DNA from: Anaerofustis stercorihominis
Lineage (GTDB): Bacteria; Bacillota; Clostridia; Eubacteriales; Anaerofustaceae
Assembly (NCBI RefSeq): GCF_024623185.1
Contig: NZ_JANJZK010000006.1
Location: 1-64,000, forward strand
DNA: 64,000 nucleotides
Reading direction: 5' to 3'
Under the pieces are notes generated by a model that made no database searches, had not been told where the DNA came from, and saw only the letters and a program-made list of their open reading frames with translations. Below, piece after piece: positions 894-7,851 of the stretch (its first letter is position 1; each line of letters opens with the position of its first letter). Made by a program: the position numbers and the translations under genes.

Positions 894-2933
894 ATGAACA
901 CTTTATACATAATTTTTATAATAATGACCATATATATCCTGATGTACGGGATAATATCTCTTTTTGCGGGAGTTATCCCCTCCGTTCTGGTATTCAGACA
1001 AATACATAAAAACAACAAAAGATATAAAGACTTGATCGAGGATAAAAAATCAAAGAAAATATCCATAATATTAAGTGCCGAGCCTAACATAAATAAGTTT
1101 ATGGCAAAGGTAAAAAATCTTTTATATTTGGATTATGATAACTTCGACATATATATAATAAATACTTCAGGGGATTTGAAATTCGCTAGAAAGATAATAA
1201 ATTTCTTCAATTTAAAGAAAGACTCAGGCAGTATCAAATATAAAATCAATAAGAGCGAAATAATCTCAATATATAAAAACGGCAAAATAAACCTTTTAAA
1301 TACGGAAAAAACAAATAAGTGGAACGGTATCAATGCAGCGGCGGATAACACAAATGCCGATTTGATACTCGATCTCGAGAAAAATATCTTTATTGAAAAA
1401 AACGCACTTAAAAAGCTTACAAGTGAATTCCTCATTGACGACGACACTCTTTTTACTTCGGGGATAATCAAAGATGACAGCTATATACAAAGAGATGATC
1501 TTGAGTATAAAGGCATAAAGACGCATAATTTTTTCGCATGTTTTTCCATTCTAAGAAACATCAAAAATAAATTATTTGAAAAGAGTTATAATTTTGAATT
1601 CTTAAACGGTGAGGAAATAGGAAACGACTTTACTTTATATAACTTGGAAAAAATACGTGAGGTCGGAGGTTTCAACTCTGAAACATCAAATCCAAACAAC
1701 GATTTGAAACAAAGACTTACTAAAATATATAAAGATGACTTCAGATTAAATTATGATGCTTTGGCTTTTGAAGAAATAGATGATATACATGAATACGTCA
1801 CCTACGACATTATAGACAGATATATAATAAAGAAAAACATAAATAATGCAAATCCATTTAACACCATAAGAGGATTATATGATTTATTCACGGGGATTAT
1901 AAATCCAATACTGGAATTCCCTATAATCATTTTATCCATATTACTCACGATAATAAAAGTGATTTCACCACTTACTTTACTTTGTTTTATACTTTTATAT
2001 ATAAGTTTTGATACGGTGAAGAATATCCTCCTTCATATTACCGACAAAATATCACTGAGAGAAAACATAAATATATCACAAAGTTTGGAATTTATAGGAT
2101 TTACGATTATTTATAACCTTGGGTTCAGACAGCTTTATAACTTAAACATATTATTATCAAGGTTTAACTTTAAAAATAAAAGAGAAGCTTATTACAAAGA
2201 AAAAGAAATCTACGGGTATATAAATGAATTTGAATTGATAGAGGATAAAAGATATGAAAAGGAACTTACGGAGTATCCTGAAAAAACTAAAATCAATGAT
2301 ACTGCTCGGGCAGATGATATAAAAGAAGAAAACAAAACCTCACATACCGAACTCAATGAAATAGGATTTATCTTAGAAGAGGAAAATGAGGAAGAAATAA
2401 CTCAAATCATAGAAGAAATAAAAGATATCAAAGCGGAAGAAATAGCAGTAGAAACAGAAGAAAAGGCTGAGAACCAAAAAGAAATAATTAATGAAACAGT
2501 AATCGAAGAAAATTCAGAGAATGAAGAGACACTAATAAAAGAACTTGAAAATTTTGATATAGAAGAAGTGGCGAAATCGGAACCCTTTAAAAAAGAAGAA
2601 GTATTTAAAGAAAAGAAACCTGAAAGCGAACTGGACAGAATAATGAGAGAACTTGCAAAAACGACGAGCAAGATAGAACAGCTTGAAGCAGAGGTTCAAA
2701 AGGAACTATCGAATATAGAAAGAAGAGCAAGAGATAAAGATATCGACGAAGAACTAAACAAATTAAAAGAAGAAGTCCTAAAAGTCGAAGAAAACATAGA
2801 TACAATAAAGGATAATAAACATCACGAAGCCGAAGCACTAAAAGAAATCGCGTCGGTCAAGGATAAAGAAGATGATGAACTTAACTTCAGCGACGACGAA
2901 ATGGACGAAGAATTCAGTAATATCACGATTTAA
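894..2933 (+). CDS. GT2-like membrane protein with long acidic coiled tail
   Basis: The 679-residue product begins with a hydrophobic segment (about 5-35). A region that follows the family 2 glycosyltransferase pattern comes next: a beta-strand start KKISIILSA near residue 53, a degenerate site ILDLEKN where DxD is expected, and NNDLKQRL near 280, which resembles the ED..R motif. One or two membrane segments follow (about 335-390). The last 230 residues are highly charged and Glu/Lys-rich, probably coiled coil or disordered. The missing clear DxD makes catalytic activity doubtful. It is coupled to the upstream HEAT-like gene and ends at a hairpin terminator. Family assignment is by pattern only. 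Confidence 0.6.
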   Translation: MNTLYIIFIIMTIYILMYGIISLFAGVIPSVLVFRQIHKNNKRYKDLIEDKKSKKISIILSAEPNINKFMAKVKNLLYLDYDNFDIYIINTSGDLKFARKIINFFNLKKDSGSIKYKINKSEIISIYKNGKINLLNTEKTNKWNGINAAADNTNADLILDLEKNIFIEKNALKKLTSEFLIDDDTLFTSGIIKDDSYIQRDDLEYKGIKTHNFFACFSILRNIKNKLFEKSYNFEFLNGEEIGNDFTLYNLEKIREVGGFNSETSNPNNDLKQRLTKIYKDDFRLNYDALAFEEIDDIHEYVTYDIIDRYIIKKNINNANPFNTIRGLYDLFTGIINPILEFPIIILSILLTIIKVISPLTLLCFILLYISFDTVKNILLHITDKISLRENINISQSLEFIGFTIIYNLGFRQLYNLNILLSRFNFKNKREAYYKEKEIYGYINEFELIEDKRYEKELTEYPEKTKINDTARADDIKEENKTSHTELNEIGFILEEENEEEITQIIEEIKDIKAEEIAVETEEKAENQKEIINETVIEENSENEETLIKELENFDIEEVAKSEPFKKEEVFKEKKPESELDRIMRELAKTTSKIEQLEAEVQKELSNIERRARDKDIDEELNKLKEEVLKVEENIDTIKDNKHHEAEALKEIASVKDKEDDELNFSDDEMDEEFSNITI

Positions 2934-2960: not shown

Positions 2961-4304
2961 TTATACAAGCATCAAGCTCGGATTGTTTATCACAGATTTG
3001 ATATTTGAAAGGACTTTCGCACATTCATTGAAATTCATCAAATCTTCGCATGCACTCAAGTATACTTTTACATGCTCGTCCTGAATAAGGACTGTTATAT
3101 CTACTTTATCTTCACATGCCTTAGGATAATAATAATCTATCTTTAATGGACTTATATCGGTTATCCTAAAATCGATATCCTCCCCTTCGATTATGTATTT
3201 CATCCTCTTATCCATCTGGCTTACAGTAAGCTCGTTTATACCGCTTAGCTTTCTTCCCGTAAAGCCTTCTTCACTGTCATATTTATATATCGCAACATCT
3301 CCCTTGAAGGAAGCTATTTTATTTTTTTCCAAAGCAAAAACTATGGATTTAACAACGGTATTGAAAATCTTTCTCTCGCTTAAATCACTGTATGAAACAA
3401 GCATTTCCTTTACAAGCTCAAGACTTGCTTTTATACCCATGGTAACTACGTTATGAGTATGAGTCTCAATAACTAATTGACTTTGGTCGCTTACGGTTTT
3501 TTCTTCACTGCTTTTACCGTCTTTATTGATAACTACGCTTCTGCTGGTATCATCATTCAAAGTTATAACGACTCTTTTTCCGTAGCTTTCATTTACTTCT
3601 CTATCCGTGTCCGGATATTCTTCGGCTACCTCGGAATGTTCCACAGGGACTATTACCTGATGAGTGACACTGTTTTCAACGGGAACGACAGGTATCTCGT
3701 TGCCTTCATCATCGTATTCTTTGGATATCACTTCTTCGATAACGGGAGTATACACTTCTTTCGCATTCTCTGCCTTGTTCATCTTTTCTATAGTATCTTT
3801 TGTATCGTGGATTTCTTCGTTTTCTTCTTTATCATTAGCTTCTTCTTTTACTTCGCTTGTAATGATACTTGAAGTCTGGTCATAATTTACGATGATATCC
3901 TTTGAAGAATTATCTTCATCATAAATATCATTTTGATGTTTTATCATAAACTGAATTATATCGGAGTCTGCATTATTTAACTCCTCCATTTCCTCATCGG
4001 TCTCACTGCTTGAATATATCTTCGTATTATCAGCTGTCTTATCTTCGACTTCATCGTTTATCATATTTATCCTTTGTTCCAATATCTTCAATTCTTCGTC
4101 TTCTTTGCTTGATTTAATGGAAATATTCTCTATATTATTTTCTTCAAGTCTTTTTCTATCGTTTAGATAACGCTCTAAATCAGCGGCTTCGATACGTCCG
4201 TTTTCGCCGCTTCCTTCTATTTGTGATAAATCTATGCCTAACGCCTTAGCCAGCTTTCTTGTGGCGGGGCTTGCTTTTTGTTTTGAATTCCCTAAGTTTG
4301 TCAT
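2961..4304 (-). CDS. E2-like protein: PSBD plus degenerate acyltransferase domain, no lipoyl domain
   Basis: Residues 11-48 are a clear peripheral subunit-binding domain of 2-oxoacid dehydrogenase E2 proteins (SPATRKLAKALGIDLSQI, GSGENGRI). No lipoyl domain precedes it: the protein starts only ten residues earlier, and no DKA-type lipoylation site is present. A long acidic linker (about 50-270) follows. Residues 278-447 keep the outline of the catalytic acyltransferase domain (FRITDISPLKIDYYYP corresponds to the usual FTISNLG...P segment, and it ends in NNPSLMLV). Where the family has DHRxxDG, this protein has ACEDLMN (418-424), so the catalytic His and Asp are gone. It is the third gene after E1alpha and E1beta, 17 bp downstream. 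It is probably structural or neofunctional; classic acyl transfer is not expected. Confidence 0.75.
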   Translation of the reverse strand: MTNLGNSKQKASPATRKLAKALGIDLSQIEGSGENGRIEAADLERYLNDRKRLEENNIENISIKSSKEDEELKILEQRINMINDEVEDKTADNTKIYSSSETDEEMEELNNADSDIIQFMIKHQNDIYDEDNSSKDIIVNYDQTSSIITSEVKEEANDKEENEEIHDTKDTIEKMNKAENAKEVYTPVIEEVISKEYDDEGNEIPVVPVENSVTHQVIVPVEHSEVAEEYPDTDREVNESYGKRVVITLNDDTSRSVVINKDGKSSEEKTVSDQSQLVIETHTHNVVTMGIKASLELVKEMLVSYSDLSERKIFNTVVKSIVFALEKNKIASFKGDVAIYKYDSEEGFTGRKLSGINELTVSQMDKRMKYIIEGEDIDFRITDISPLKIDYYYPKACEDKVDITVLIQDEHVKVYLSACEDLMNFNECAKVLSNIKSVINNPSLMLV

Positions 4305-4321: not shown

Positions 4322-5302
4322 TTAATATTCAACCAACTGCATTATTTTTTCTAAAAGTTTACCTGAACTCGGCAGTACTTCCTTAGCCTTTATAGGATTG
4401 AAAGGTGTGAAATTATCATCACTGCACATCCTAGCTACCGGAGCTTCAAGATAATCAAAAGCTTCGCTTTCAACGATTATACTTGCTATTTCGCTTCCGA
4501 CGGAGCATGTTTTATAACCTTCATACACTACAATGGCTCTTCCCGTCTTCTTAACGGATTTGATTATAGTCTCGCTGTCGATTGGTTTTATGGTCCTTAA
4601 ATCTATTACTTCTACTTTTACATCACTCATATATGCTACGTCGCTGGCTTTCATTGCTTCTTTTACCATGCTTCCGTAGGTTATGACTGTAATGTCGCTT
4701 CCTTCTCTTATTATATTGGCTTTTCCCAGAGGTATCCTTTCCTCCGACTTTTCACTTATTTCGCCTTTAACATTATATAAATTCTTGTTTTCAAAGAATA
4801 TTACGGGGTCATGCTCTAAAAATGAGCTTCGCATAAGACCTATAGCGTCTTTCGGTGTCGAAGGATAAACCACTTTTATACCCGGGAAATGTGCCATTAC
4901 AGCCTCAACAGACTCGTTATCCTGCACACTGGAGTAAGGAGTATATCCTATTGGACATCTTATAAGAAGACTCCCCGGTACCTTAGTACCAAAGGCTTTA
5001 AGCTTTGAAGCATAGTTTATTATCGGATCCATAGACCTTATCAAAAACTTAGTTCCAGGTATTTCAGTTATTACGTTGAACCCGTTTAGACTAAGTCCTA
5101 CGCTTGAACCTATATAAGCATTTTCGCTTACCGGTACTTCTATTATCCTCTCTTCAGGTATTTGTACGTCAAATCCCTTGCTTACTTTGTATTCTCCGCC
5201 GAATACCCCTATATCCTGAGAAACGAATACACTGTTCCTGTTCTTTCTCAGTTCGTATAAAAGAGTATTCTTGATTGCCTGTTTAAAAGTTAATTCTATC
5301 AT
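4322..5302 (-). CDS. 2-oxoacid dehydrogenase E1 beta-like subunit
   Basis: The 326 residues are the normal length of pyruvate, acetoin or branched-chain dehydrogenase E1beta. Family landmarks are present: SQDIGVFGG (28-36), PVSENAYIGSSVG with the conserved Glu60, AHFPGIKVVYPSTP (137-150), DPVIFFENKNLY and the C-terminal transketolase domain (VIDLRTIKPID). The active-site His of the usual QHSQS motif is replaced: this protein reads QDNES (127-131). The ATG overlaps the E1alpha stop (TAATG), a sign of translational coupling and a 1:1 complex. The substrate cannot be inferred. Confidence 0.85.
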   Translation of the reverse strand: MIELTFKQAIKNTLLYELRKNRNSVFVSQDIGVFGGEYKVSKGFDVQIPEERIIEVPVSENAYIGSSVGLSLNGFNVITEIPGTKFLIRSMDPIINYASKLKAFGTKVPGSLLIRCPIGYTPYSSVQDNESVEAVMAHFPGIKVVYPSTPKDAIGLMRSSFLEHDPVIFFENKNLYNVKGEISEKSEERIPLGKANIIREGSDITVITYGSMVKEAMKASDVAYMSDVKVEVIDLRTIKPIDSETIIKSVKKTGRAIVVYEGYKTCSVGSEIASIIVESEAFDYLEAPVARMCSDDNFTPFNPIKAKEVLPSSGKLLEKIMQLVEY

Positions 5303-7143
5303 TATCTGCCCTCCCCGAAGATATCAAGGTCAAGTTCCGCTTCATCTTCCATTTCAAGCATATTATGTAAATCAGATACGTCATTGCCGTCACTTACATC
5401 TATAACAGGTGAACTGCCCCTTGATGAGACTGTAAAAGGCTGTTCGCTGTTCATATTCAGACTCTTCATATATTCCTTTATGATATCGTCGTCTTCGTTA
5501 TAATTACTGAACAAATCATCTTTTGTATTGTCATAATAAGGATTTACTTCTTCTATAGGCTCGAAATGTTCTATATTCTGCTTTCTCAAATCATTGTAGT
5601 CTGAACTTTCTTCAACCGACGCATTTACAAAAGTTATCTTATCTTCATCTTCTTTTTCATAACCGTCTACGATGTTCGCTTTCATGCTTATATCGTCATA
5701 AATATCACTGTTTACCACAGTAGTGGTATACTTCTTTTCTTCTTCATCTATTTCTTTAAATATATTTTCAAGCACATTCTCCGCATTTGAAATATATCTT
5801 TTTTCTTCTTCGGTAACTACTTCTTCTTTTTCTTCCTTTTCCGGTCTCTTTCTCATGGTATCCCTGAAATCAACATCCGCAAAACCGTCGGTGTTTGATA
5901 TCAAGGTATGAGTATGACCGTTTCTTAGTATATCCTCTACACTCAGCTCTTCTTTAGGAGTATCGTCTCTTTCCGGGAATATATTTTTAAGCCTCTTTAT
6001 TTCATCGAAAACTTGGTCATTGGCTCTTATTTCTTCTTCACTGCCCCCTACCGCATCTTTTTCGGTAAAAGCGGATTTTAACTTAGGCTCTTCTATCATA
6101 ACCGAAGTGTCAGCCTGTTTCAAAAATTCTTTCTGTTCAAGTAAAGCTTTTAATTCTTCTTCTATCTGAGTCTTCTTTGAAATCTTTTCTTCTTCTTTTT
6201 CTTCAAGTTCTTCTTTAGGAATCTCTTTTTCGTTTAGTATTTTATTTATTATCCTGTCCATTTCAGCCGAAATGGTGTCTTTCATCATTTGAAGGTCATC
6301 ATCTATCCCGACCATATTTTGAAGCATATAGTTACTAAGCAGCTTTATAGGACATTTATCGAACCAAGCCCTAAGTTCCTTTGAACTTCTGTAAAGTGCT
6401 TTATCCGCAAGATGATGTCCGCTGAAGCGATAAGTCTTTGCCTCAAGGATTATAGGACCTTTTCCCCCTCTTACATAGCTTGAAGCCGTAAGCATCGCTT
6501 CGTACATATCGAGTACATTGTTCCCGTCAACTATGATGCCCGGTATGGAATAACTGCTTGCACGGGAAGCTATATCCTTGACCGTAGATGTTTTGGAAAA
6601 GCTCTGTCCTTTTGCATATCCGTTGTTTTCAACCAAGTATATTATTGGAAGCTTAAACATTGAAGCCATATTTACGCTTTCTGAAAACACACCTTCGTTT
6701 ACAGCGCCCTCTCCTATAAAGGAAACTACTATATTGTTCGTATGATGTATCTTCTCTCCCATAGCAACCCCCGTCGCTACGGAAACATTTCCCGCAGGGA
6801 CCGCCGAAGCACCGTAGATATCAGCCTTTGTATCAGCAAAATATCCAGGTCCCGCCATACCGTCGGTATAACCTCCGTCTAACCCCATTATCTCACGAAA
6901 CATCTTTTCTATATCCATTTCCAGACATATGGAAGCCGCAAAGTTCCTATGTGATGTAAAAACTTTGTCCTTGCCGTTTATTGCAGCCATTGCTCCCGCA
7001 CTTACCGCTTCCTGTCCTATGGATAAATATAAGTTTGTATGTATCTTTCCTTCTTCGTATAAAGATGCCAGTTTTTCTTCAAAAACCCTAACTTTGAGCA
7101 TCTTATAAAATAACTCAACGATTTTTTGGTTGTTTATGTTCAT
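5302..7143 (-). CDS. 2-oxoacid dehydrogenase E1 alpha-like subunit with ~300-residue acidic extension
   Basis: Residues 1-300 form a thiamine diphosphate-dependent E1alpha domain: GEGAVNEG (144-151) with ENNGYA (172-177) is the ThDP/Mg motif, and YRFSGHHLAD (238-247) is the phosphorylation-loop segment. Residues 301-613 have no counterpart in ordinary E1alpha (usually about 320-370 residues). They are very rich in Asp/Glu and probably disordered. Two conserved histidines appear replaced: HRNHGH of relatives is HRNFAA here (65-70, Phe68), and GGSMH is AGPGY (97-101, Tyr101). The start has an AGGGGG ribosome binding site and lies 9 bp after ispD. Whether decarboxylation still occurs is open. 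Confidence 0.85.
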   Translation of the reverse strand: MNINNQKIVELFYKMLKVRVFEEKLASLYEEGKIHTNLYLSIGQEAVSAGAMAAINGKDKVFTSHRNFAASICLEMDIEKMFREIMGLDGGYTDGMAGPGYFADTKADIYGASAVPAGNVSVATGVAMGEKIHHTNNIVVSFIGEGAVNEGVFSESVNMASMFKLPIIYLVENNGYAKGQSFSKTSTVKDIASRASSYSIPGIIVDGNNVLDMYEAMLTASSYVRGGKGPIILEAKTYRFSGHHLADKALYRSSKELRAWFDKCPIKLLSNYMLQNMVGIDDDLQMMKDTISAEMDRIINKILNEKEIPKEELEEKEEEKISKKTQIEEELKALLEQKEFLKQADTSVMIEEPKLKSAFTEKDAVGGSEEEIRANDQVFDEIKRLKNIFPERDDTPKEELSVEDILRNGHTHTLISNTDGFADVDFRDTMRKRPEKEEKEEVVTEEEKRYISNAENVLENIFKEIDEEEKKYTTTVVNSDIYDDISMKANIVDGYEKEDEDKITFVNASVEESSDYNDLRKQNIEHFEPIEEVNPYYDNTKDDLFSNYNEDDDIIKEYMKSLNMNSEQPFTVSSRGSSPVIDVSDGNDVSDLHNMLEMEDEAELDLDIFGEGR

Positions 7144-7152
7144 TGTAACCCC

Positions 7153-7851
7153 CTAGTTTCTGCTTGATAAAATCTCTTGAGCGTAGATTAAATCTTCAGG
7201 TGTTGTTATTTTTATATTGTTATAAGAACCTTTTATTATCTTTACTTTTACATTATTTTCTTCCACGAGGTATGAATCGTCTGTTCCGATGATACCTTTC
7301 TCCTCTGCGTTTTTATAAGCTTCTTTTAAGATATCCGCCTTAAAAACCTGAGGTGTTCTTATATTGTAAAGCGTACTTCTTTCCACCGTAGCGGATACAA
7401 ATCCCTCATTGTCCGCTTTCTTGACCGTTTCCTTTACGGGTACCCCAAGCACGCATCCTCCGAACTTCTTTGCTCCGAGAACGGTGTTTATTATCTCCTT
7501 ATTGGAAATAAGAGGTCTCGCACCGTCATGTACGGATATTATAGTACACCTTTCATCAACTTTCTTTACCGCATTATAAACCGATTCCTGTCTTGTGCTT
7601 CCGCCGACTACCAGCTTATAAGGCTTTTTTATCTTATATTCTTTAAGTACCTTATCTTTGAATAACTTTTCTTCATTATCCGCAACGACAATAAGTATTT
7701 CATCTATATAAGGACATTTATCGAAAGCTATGATAGTATGGGTAAGTATCGCTTTTTTGTCTAAAGATATGTACTGCTTATTGATACTCTTACCCATCCT
7801 CGTTCCTCTGCCTGCAGCAGGGATTATTACACTTACAAAATCATCATTCAT
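7153..7851 (-). CDS. ispD: 2-C-methyl-D-erythritol 4-phosphate cytidylyltransferase
   Basis: IspD joins CTP to methylerythritol phosphate in the non-mevalonate isoprenoid pathway. The 232-residue length is typical. The nucleotide-binding start SVIIPAAGRGTRMGKSINKQYI, the HDGARPLI motif and the TDDSYLVE motif are all present. It follows radC by about 37 bp and precedes the E1alpha-like gene by 9 bp on the same strand, so it shares the maf-radC transcript. Its ribosome binding site is AGGAG. Confidence 0.95.
   Translation of the reverse strand: MNDDFVSVIIPAAGRGTRMGKSINKQYISLDKKAILTHTIIAFDKCPYIDEILIVVADNEEKLFKDKVLKEYKIKKPYKLVVGGSTRQESVYNAVKKVDERCTIISVHDGARPLISNKEIINTVLGAKKFGGCVLGVPVKETVKKADNEGFVSATVERSTLYNIRTPQVFKADILKEAYKNAEEKGIIGTDDSYLVEENNVKVKIIKGSYNNIKITTPEDLIYAQEILSSRN

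Follow-up and report, generated by a model that had tools for sequence, protein, structure and literature searches.

A relative of the E1alpha subunit of pyruvate dehydrogenase (PDH) is encoded directly after ispD in an Anaerofustis genome, with active-site histidines replaced and a long acidic tail attached, raising the question of what such a protein does in an isoprenoid operon. The gene (5302 to 7143, minus strand, in the window of 64,000 nucleotides analyzed here) is an open frame for a protein of 613 residues, with a core at residues 1 to 300 and the tail at residues 301 to 613. The original prediction named it correctly: residues 14 to 305 match PF00676 (E1_dh; E = 6e-60, 203 bits against a cut-off of 22), and the equivalog TIGR03182 scores it at 275.8 bits, below the cut-off of 393.85.

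The E1 pair and its active-site residues

E1alpha is the second gene in a series of almost abutting minus-strand genes, in the order ispD, E1alpha, E1beta, and E2-like. The ispD gene (7153 to 7851; PF01128, E = 1e-65; TIGR00453 above its cut-off) is upstream across a gap of 9 bp, and the genes that follow code for an E1beta-like protein of 326 residues (4322 to 5302; matches to PF02779 and PF02780) and an E2-like protein of 447 residues (2961 to 4304). The closest named relative, Anaerofustis stercorihominis, matches at 75% across the full-length E1alpha and has the same order, radC-ispD-E1alpha-E1beta-E2-like. Relative to genome G012, against which synonymous sites are unsaturated, the E1alpha core has a dN/dS of 0.017 and E1beta one of 0.012, both lower than those of ispD (0.045) and radC (0.039); the E2-like gene is at 0.051 and the tail at 0.074. 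These values are the pattern of working proteins.

Alignment of E1alpha and E1beta with 44 intact relatives confirms the predicted replacement of two histidines. Phe68 (6940 to 6942) replaces the histidine of the RxH motif and Tyr101 (6841 to 6843) that of GGSMH, positions at which 98% and 100% of the relatives, respectively, have histidine; human PDH-E1alpha gives the same alignment at both. No shifted histidine lies near either position in these alignments, and the histidine loss therefore stands. Its meaning was overstated, however, as solved active E1s lack one or both residues: in Geobacillus PDH-E1alpha (1W85), position 68 is Val and nothing aligns with position 101, and in human branched-chain (BCKDH) E1alpha, position 68 is Ala. 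His68 and His101 are thus not diagnostic of activity, and their loss is ruled out as proof of inactivity. The same is true of D145E in the ThDP/Mg motif G-E-G (residues 144 to 146; 6706 to 6714), since GEGA is present in human BCKDH E1alpha; it reads GDGA in the other two Anaerofustis genomes. The SGHH segment is the GHS loop of the family with Ser replaced by His.

Further replacements, absent from the original prediction, are His39 to Tyr, S99P, and M100G in E1alpha and His128 to Asp in E1beta (4919 to 4921). The last of these, in the neighboring gene, is the stronger loss. This histidine is said to be conserved across all known E1s and is the proposed proton donor in lipoate acylation, and the suggestion is that it does not serve as general acid/base for the first half-reaction (PMC2663715). 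Retained in Anaerofustis are alpha R66, G144-(D/E)145-G146, N174, and His243, the loop histidine near ThDP (6415 to 6417), together with the activating Glu60 of E1beta (5123 to 5125). Of these, R66, G-D/E-G, and N174 (and H243 where covered) are common to all active E1s compared. The pair thus resembles PDH and acetoin dehydrogenase E1 (PF00676, PF02779/PF02780; TIGR03182, NF006667) in sequence family, ThDP/Mg motif, activating Glu, alpha-loop His, and the gene order E1alpha-E1beta-E2, but differs in beta Asp128, in the replaced alpha H39, H68, and H101, in the acidic tail, in having no lipoyl-bearing operon partner, and in its adjacency to ispD.

The E2-like partner and the acidic tail

In the E2-like protein, a peripheral subunit-binding domain (4173 to 4277; PF02817, E = 2e-13) is followed by a long acidic linker, and the C-terminal region by eye reads as an apparent acyltransferase (CAT) remnant (2964 to 3584). 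PF02817 is its sole domain match; neither a lipoyl domain, a PF00198 match, nor a DHRxxDG motif was found in it. The CAT assignment comes from a by-eye alignment of weak statistics, which places CEDLMNF at the expected DHRxxDG, and from a collinear but weak hhalign alignment; AlphaFold models built from two-row alignments are unusable (pLDDT 31, for this region, and 34). The architecture recalls E2 and the mitochondrial E3-binding protein PDHX, itself related to E2 and structural in function, in its subunit-binding domain, linker, and apparent CAT remnant, but differs in having no lipoyl domain whatever, no DHRxxDG, and a long acidic linker. With beta His128 replaced by Asp and both the lipoyl domain and DHRxxDG missing, the E1alpha-E1beta-E2-like trio alone cannot carry out normal PDH complex chemistry, and we are confident that the locus encodes a complex without lipoyl chemistry. 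The same genome has two further, complete-looking E1 systems. One (C22, locus L067) codes for E1alpha, E1beta, E2, and E3 with lipoyl domains, and the other (C63, locus L068, 5037 to 10147) for a lipoyl E2, E3, and an 820-residue fused E1alpha-E1beta.

The acidic E1alpha tail (5305 to 6243) is as described from the sequence: 313 residues in which E, D, and K are the three commonest (D+E 28%, K 10%), with a net charge of -48. By charge and hydropathy it is predicted to be disordered except at about residues 400 to 430. Within the family, all three Anaerofustis genomes have such a tail, and the sister genus G033 has a shorter, dissimilar one; none was found in the eight other family homologues inspected. 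An island at residues 402 to 428 (5860 to 5940) is near-identical in A. stercorihominis and contains NGHTHTLIS (residues 408 to 416). This segment and the ETHTHN of the E2-like protein (residues 280 to 285) both exist as predicted, and both are conserved in A. stercorihominis. The proposal that they are a shared motif is rejected on position and distribution: one THTH is inside the predicted disordered tail and the other at the start of the apparent acyltransferase remnant, and THTH, found neither in the G033 tail nor in E2-like proteins of other genera, is specific to the genus in both proteins. Among the 47 open reading frames of the window, the three most acidic 100-residue stretches are in E1alpha, the E2-like protein, and a convergent gene (894 to 2933, plus strand). 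The last codes for a 679-residue protein that has no Pfam match and the most acidic stretch of all (37% D+E over 100 residues), and its synteny is not kept in G012.

Conservation across the family and order

The trio is kept in 12 genomes of the family, with ispD immediately upstream in eight, and its E1s cluster as a single clade (support 1.0) with a long branch, separate from the intact C22-type E1s. Residues that bind the ThDP diphosphate and Mg are near universal (R66 and G144 in 12/12; D145, G146, and N174 in 11/12). By contrast, H68, H101, and beta H128 are present in none of the 12, and H243 and beta E60 in five each. The five genomes that keep both beta Glu60 and alpha His243 include the three of Anaerofustis; in the other seven, position 60 is K, S, I, I, D, S, or D. 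The intact set has 52 invariant alpha columns; in eight of these (36, 39, 68, 99 to 101, 116, and 244), mostly within or next to known active-site motifs, at least 80% of the family has lost the residue. The shared losses suggest a family ancestor already without the histidines and still with Glu60. The replacement residues common to Anaerofustis and G033 do not exceed background and are discounted as a conserved new site. All of the E2-like proteins of the family keep the subunit-binding domain and none has a lipoyl domain or DHRxxDG.

The Anaerofustis locus belongs to an order-wide pattern of ispD-linked PDH complexes losing the lipoyl lysine, the E2 histidine, or the E3 cysteines. In family f3 the typical order is tsaE-ispD-E1alpha-E1beta-E2-E3-guaA (tsaE and guaA are putative, named from sequence starts). 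There, the lipoyl lysine, DHRxxDG, and the E3 CxxxxC are lost in several genera with the genes kept, and one genome (G040) retains all three. Six E3-like partners in f3 are without CxxxxC, so that loss of chemistry with retention of the gene is a repeated event. We note retained ispD-linked E2- and E3-like proteins without lipoyl lysine, DHRxxDG, or CxxxxC at L098 to L104 and L113, in several genera. Families f2 (G001 and G006) and f4 have the order ispD-E1alpha-E1beta-ispF with no E2 or E3 and with intact E1 sites (loci L056 to L061 and L105).

The DXS gap and what the complex may do

Full-length 1-deoxyxylulose 5-phosphate (DXP) synthase (DXS), defined as a TIGR00204 score above cut-off, was found in 20 of the 61 genomes that represent the order; the family, whose 13 genomes include the three of Anaerofustis, has none. 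The rest of the pathway is widespread. Across the order ispG is universal (61/61), DXR-I is found in 42, and a reductoisomerase candidate (DXR-I or DXR-II type, PF21135) in 59; the family counts are 13/13 for the reductoisomerase candidate and ispG, 12/13 for ispE and ispH, and 11/13 for ispF. HMG-CoA synthase was found in none of the 61, and no mevalonate route was found in the Anaerofustis genome, which has ispD, E, F, G, and H and a DXR-II-type gene. DXR-II has been described as an alternative enzyme (PMC3847144); the gene is a candidate only, since PF21135 also takes in paralogues of other function. The sole DXS-like sequence in this genome besides the E1 proteins is a split transketolase pair. 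The Anaerofustis E1 shares the ThDP superfamily with DXS and is a candidate for its reaction (pyruvate plus glyceraldehyde 3-phosphate to DXP), but consists of two separate subunits, which score only 24 and 69 bits with TIGR00204, where the cut-off is 466.

DXR-II-type genes have other neighborhoods. Two DXS-less genomes carry one divergent from an intact E1alpha-E1beta pair with no E2 or E3 (L077, 6447 to 10010; L078, 5455 to 8868), and these pairs are DXP synthase candidates. G043 may have a split DXS, in that a second gene for a transketolase C-half comes immediately after one of DXR-II type (L082, 1585 to 3866). Many copies (L075, L079 to L081, L085, and L087 to L091) are inside apparent glucitol-type PTS operons, some adjoining complete lipoyl complexes; adjacency to E1 is thus mostly rejected as proof of DXP synthesis, although it is suggestive in G020 and G029.

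Our best guess, held with somewhat less than even confidence, is that the Anaerofustis E1 is a ThDP carboligase that works without lipoyl groups and may be the missing DXP synthase. E1alpha would be the alpha subunit of a PDH/acetoin-type E1 (alpha2beta2) that gave up lipoyl-dependent chemistry and is probably held, through the subunit-binding domain, by a lipoyl-free E2-like scaffold, with the acidic tails perhaps forming a disordered halo. The E1 most likely would still bind and activate ThDP, decarboxylate a 2-oxo acid, probably pyruvate, and hand the two-carbon unit to an aldehyde rather than to lipoate. Since the operon includes ispD and the search for DXS came up empty, DXP would be the most likely product. 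The loss of beta His128 along with the lipoyl domain, the retention of the ThDP-activating residues common to active E1s, the operon, and the missing DXS together favor this reading, and the low dN/dS, the otherwise present MEP pathway, and the absence of HMG-CoA synthase count in its favor. So do the ispD-E1alpha-E1beta-ispF operons of f2 and f4, in particular that of G001, a 100% complete genome with one E1alpha match, no E2 match, and no DXS. There is also a precedent, in that aceE (PDH E1) mutants restore DXP to dxs-null E. coli (PMC3424233), where Yokota and Sasajima (1986) are cited for the ability of PDH and acetoin dehydrogenase to form 1-deoxyketoses. Those mutants provide a PDH E1 giving DXP, as proposed for the Anaerofustis E1, but are laboratory suppressors of a complete PDH and not natural and lipoyl-free. 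Against this reading, seven of the 12 family genomes have lost the activating beta Glu and are still without DXS, and no active E1 in which beta 128 is Asp is known to us. Moreover, in G025 and G043 the ispD-linked E1 is degenerate, DXS is missing, and the matches listed include no further strong E1alpha, and the ispD-E1 linkage also occurs in DXS-bearing genomes, such that the ispD-linked E1 is ruled out as a universal DXS substitute. Alternative sources of DXP could be the split transketolase or the genome's two other E1 systems. The chances that the Anaerofustis E1 is still an active ThDP enzyme appear evenly balanced; that it is a DXP synthase is a more tentative proposal, its product being a guess.

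It is also possible, although we would not call it probable, that the E1-E2 assembly is catalytically dead and is a ThDP-binding structural or regulatory hub of the isoprenoid operon, perhaps a sensor of ThDP, for which DXP is likewise a biosynthetic precursor. The family-wide retention of diphosphate and Mg residues amid losses of H68, H101, H243, beta H128, and beta E60, the E2-like proteins with a binding domain and neither lipoyl domain nor DHRxxDG, and the E3-like partners without CxxxxC all fit such a role, which is favored by the decay of beta Glu60 in several sister genera. Anaerofustis itself, however, keeps beta Glu60 and alpha His243, with the core under very strong purifying selection, and no positive evidence points to a scaffold or sensing function; the pseudoenzyme residue pattern thus appears supported in the sister genera and not clearly in Anaerofustis. 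An active ThDP enzyme of other specificity (carboligation of the acetoin or acetolactate type, for instance, or a non-oxidative decarboxylation) that has no tie to isoprenoids and is beside ispD by inheritance is unlikely. The linkage is old and spans full E1-E2-E3 complexes and DXS-bearing genomes, as expected of an inherited neighborhood, but that to ispD/ispF outlasts the loss of E2 and E3 in f2 and f4. That the locus is the relic of a PDH complex heading for loss, as the anaerobic host and the stepwise loss of catalytic parts might suggest, is very improbable given the selection analysis, with dN/dS of 0.012 to 0.017 in Anaerofustis, every frame open, and the trio kept in 12 genomes.

A literature search of partial coverage found no description of this locus, nor of any natural PDH-derived DXS. 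Repeated shedding of the lipoyl lysine, E2 histidine, E3 cysteines, or E1 residues with the genes kept would be an unusual fate for so well studied an assembly as the PDH-type complex. More broadly, we consider it a rather doubtful idea that an order largely without DXS makes DXP with a PDH-derived E1 alpha-beta linked to ispD/ispF, the remodeled, lipoate-free Anaerofustis E1 on its E2-derived scaffold being a natural non-orthologous DXS replacement. That 41 of 61 genomes are without a full-length DXS, with ispG universal and HMG-CoA synthase absent, makes an alternative DXP route directly testable, and such a route bears on antibacterial work on DXS and on isoprenoid engineering in acetogens.
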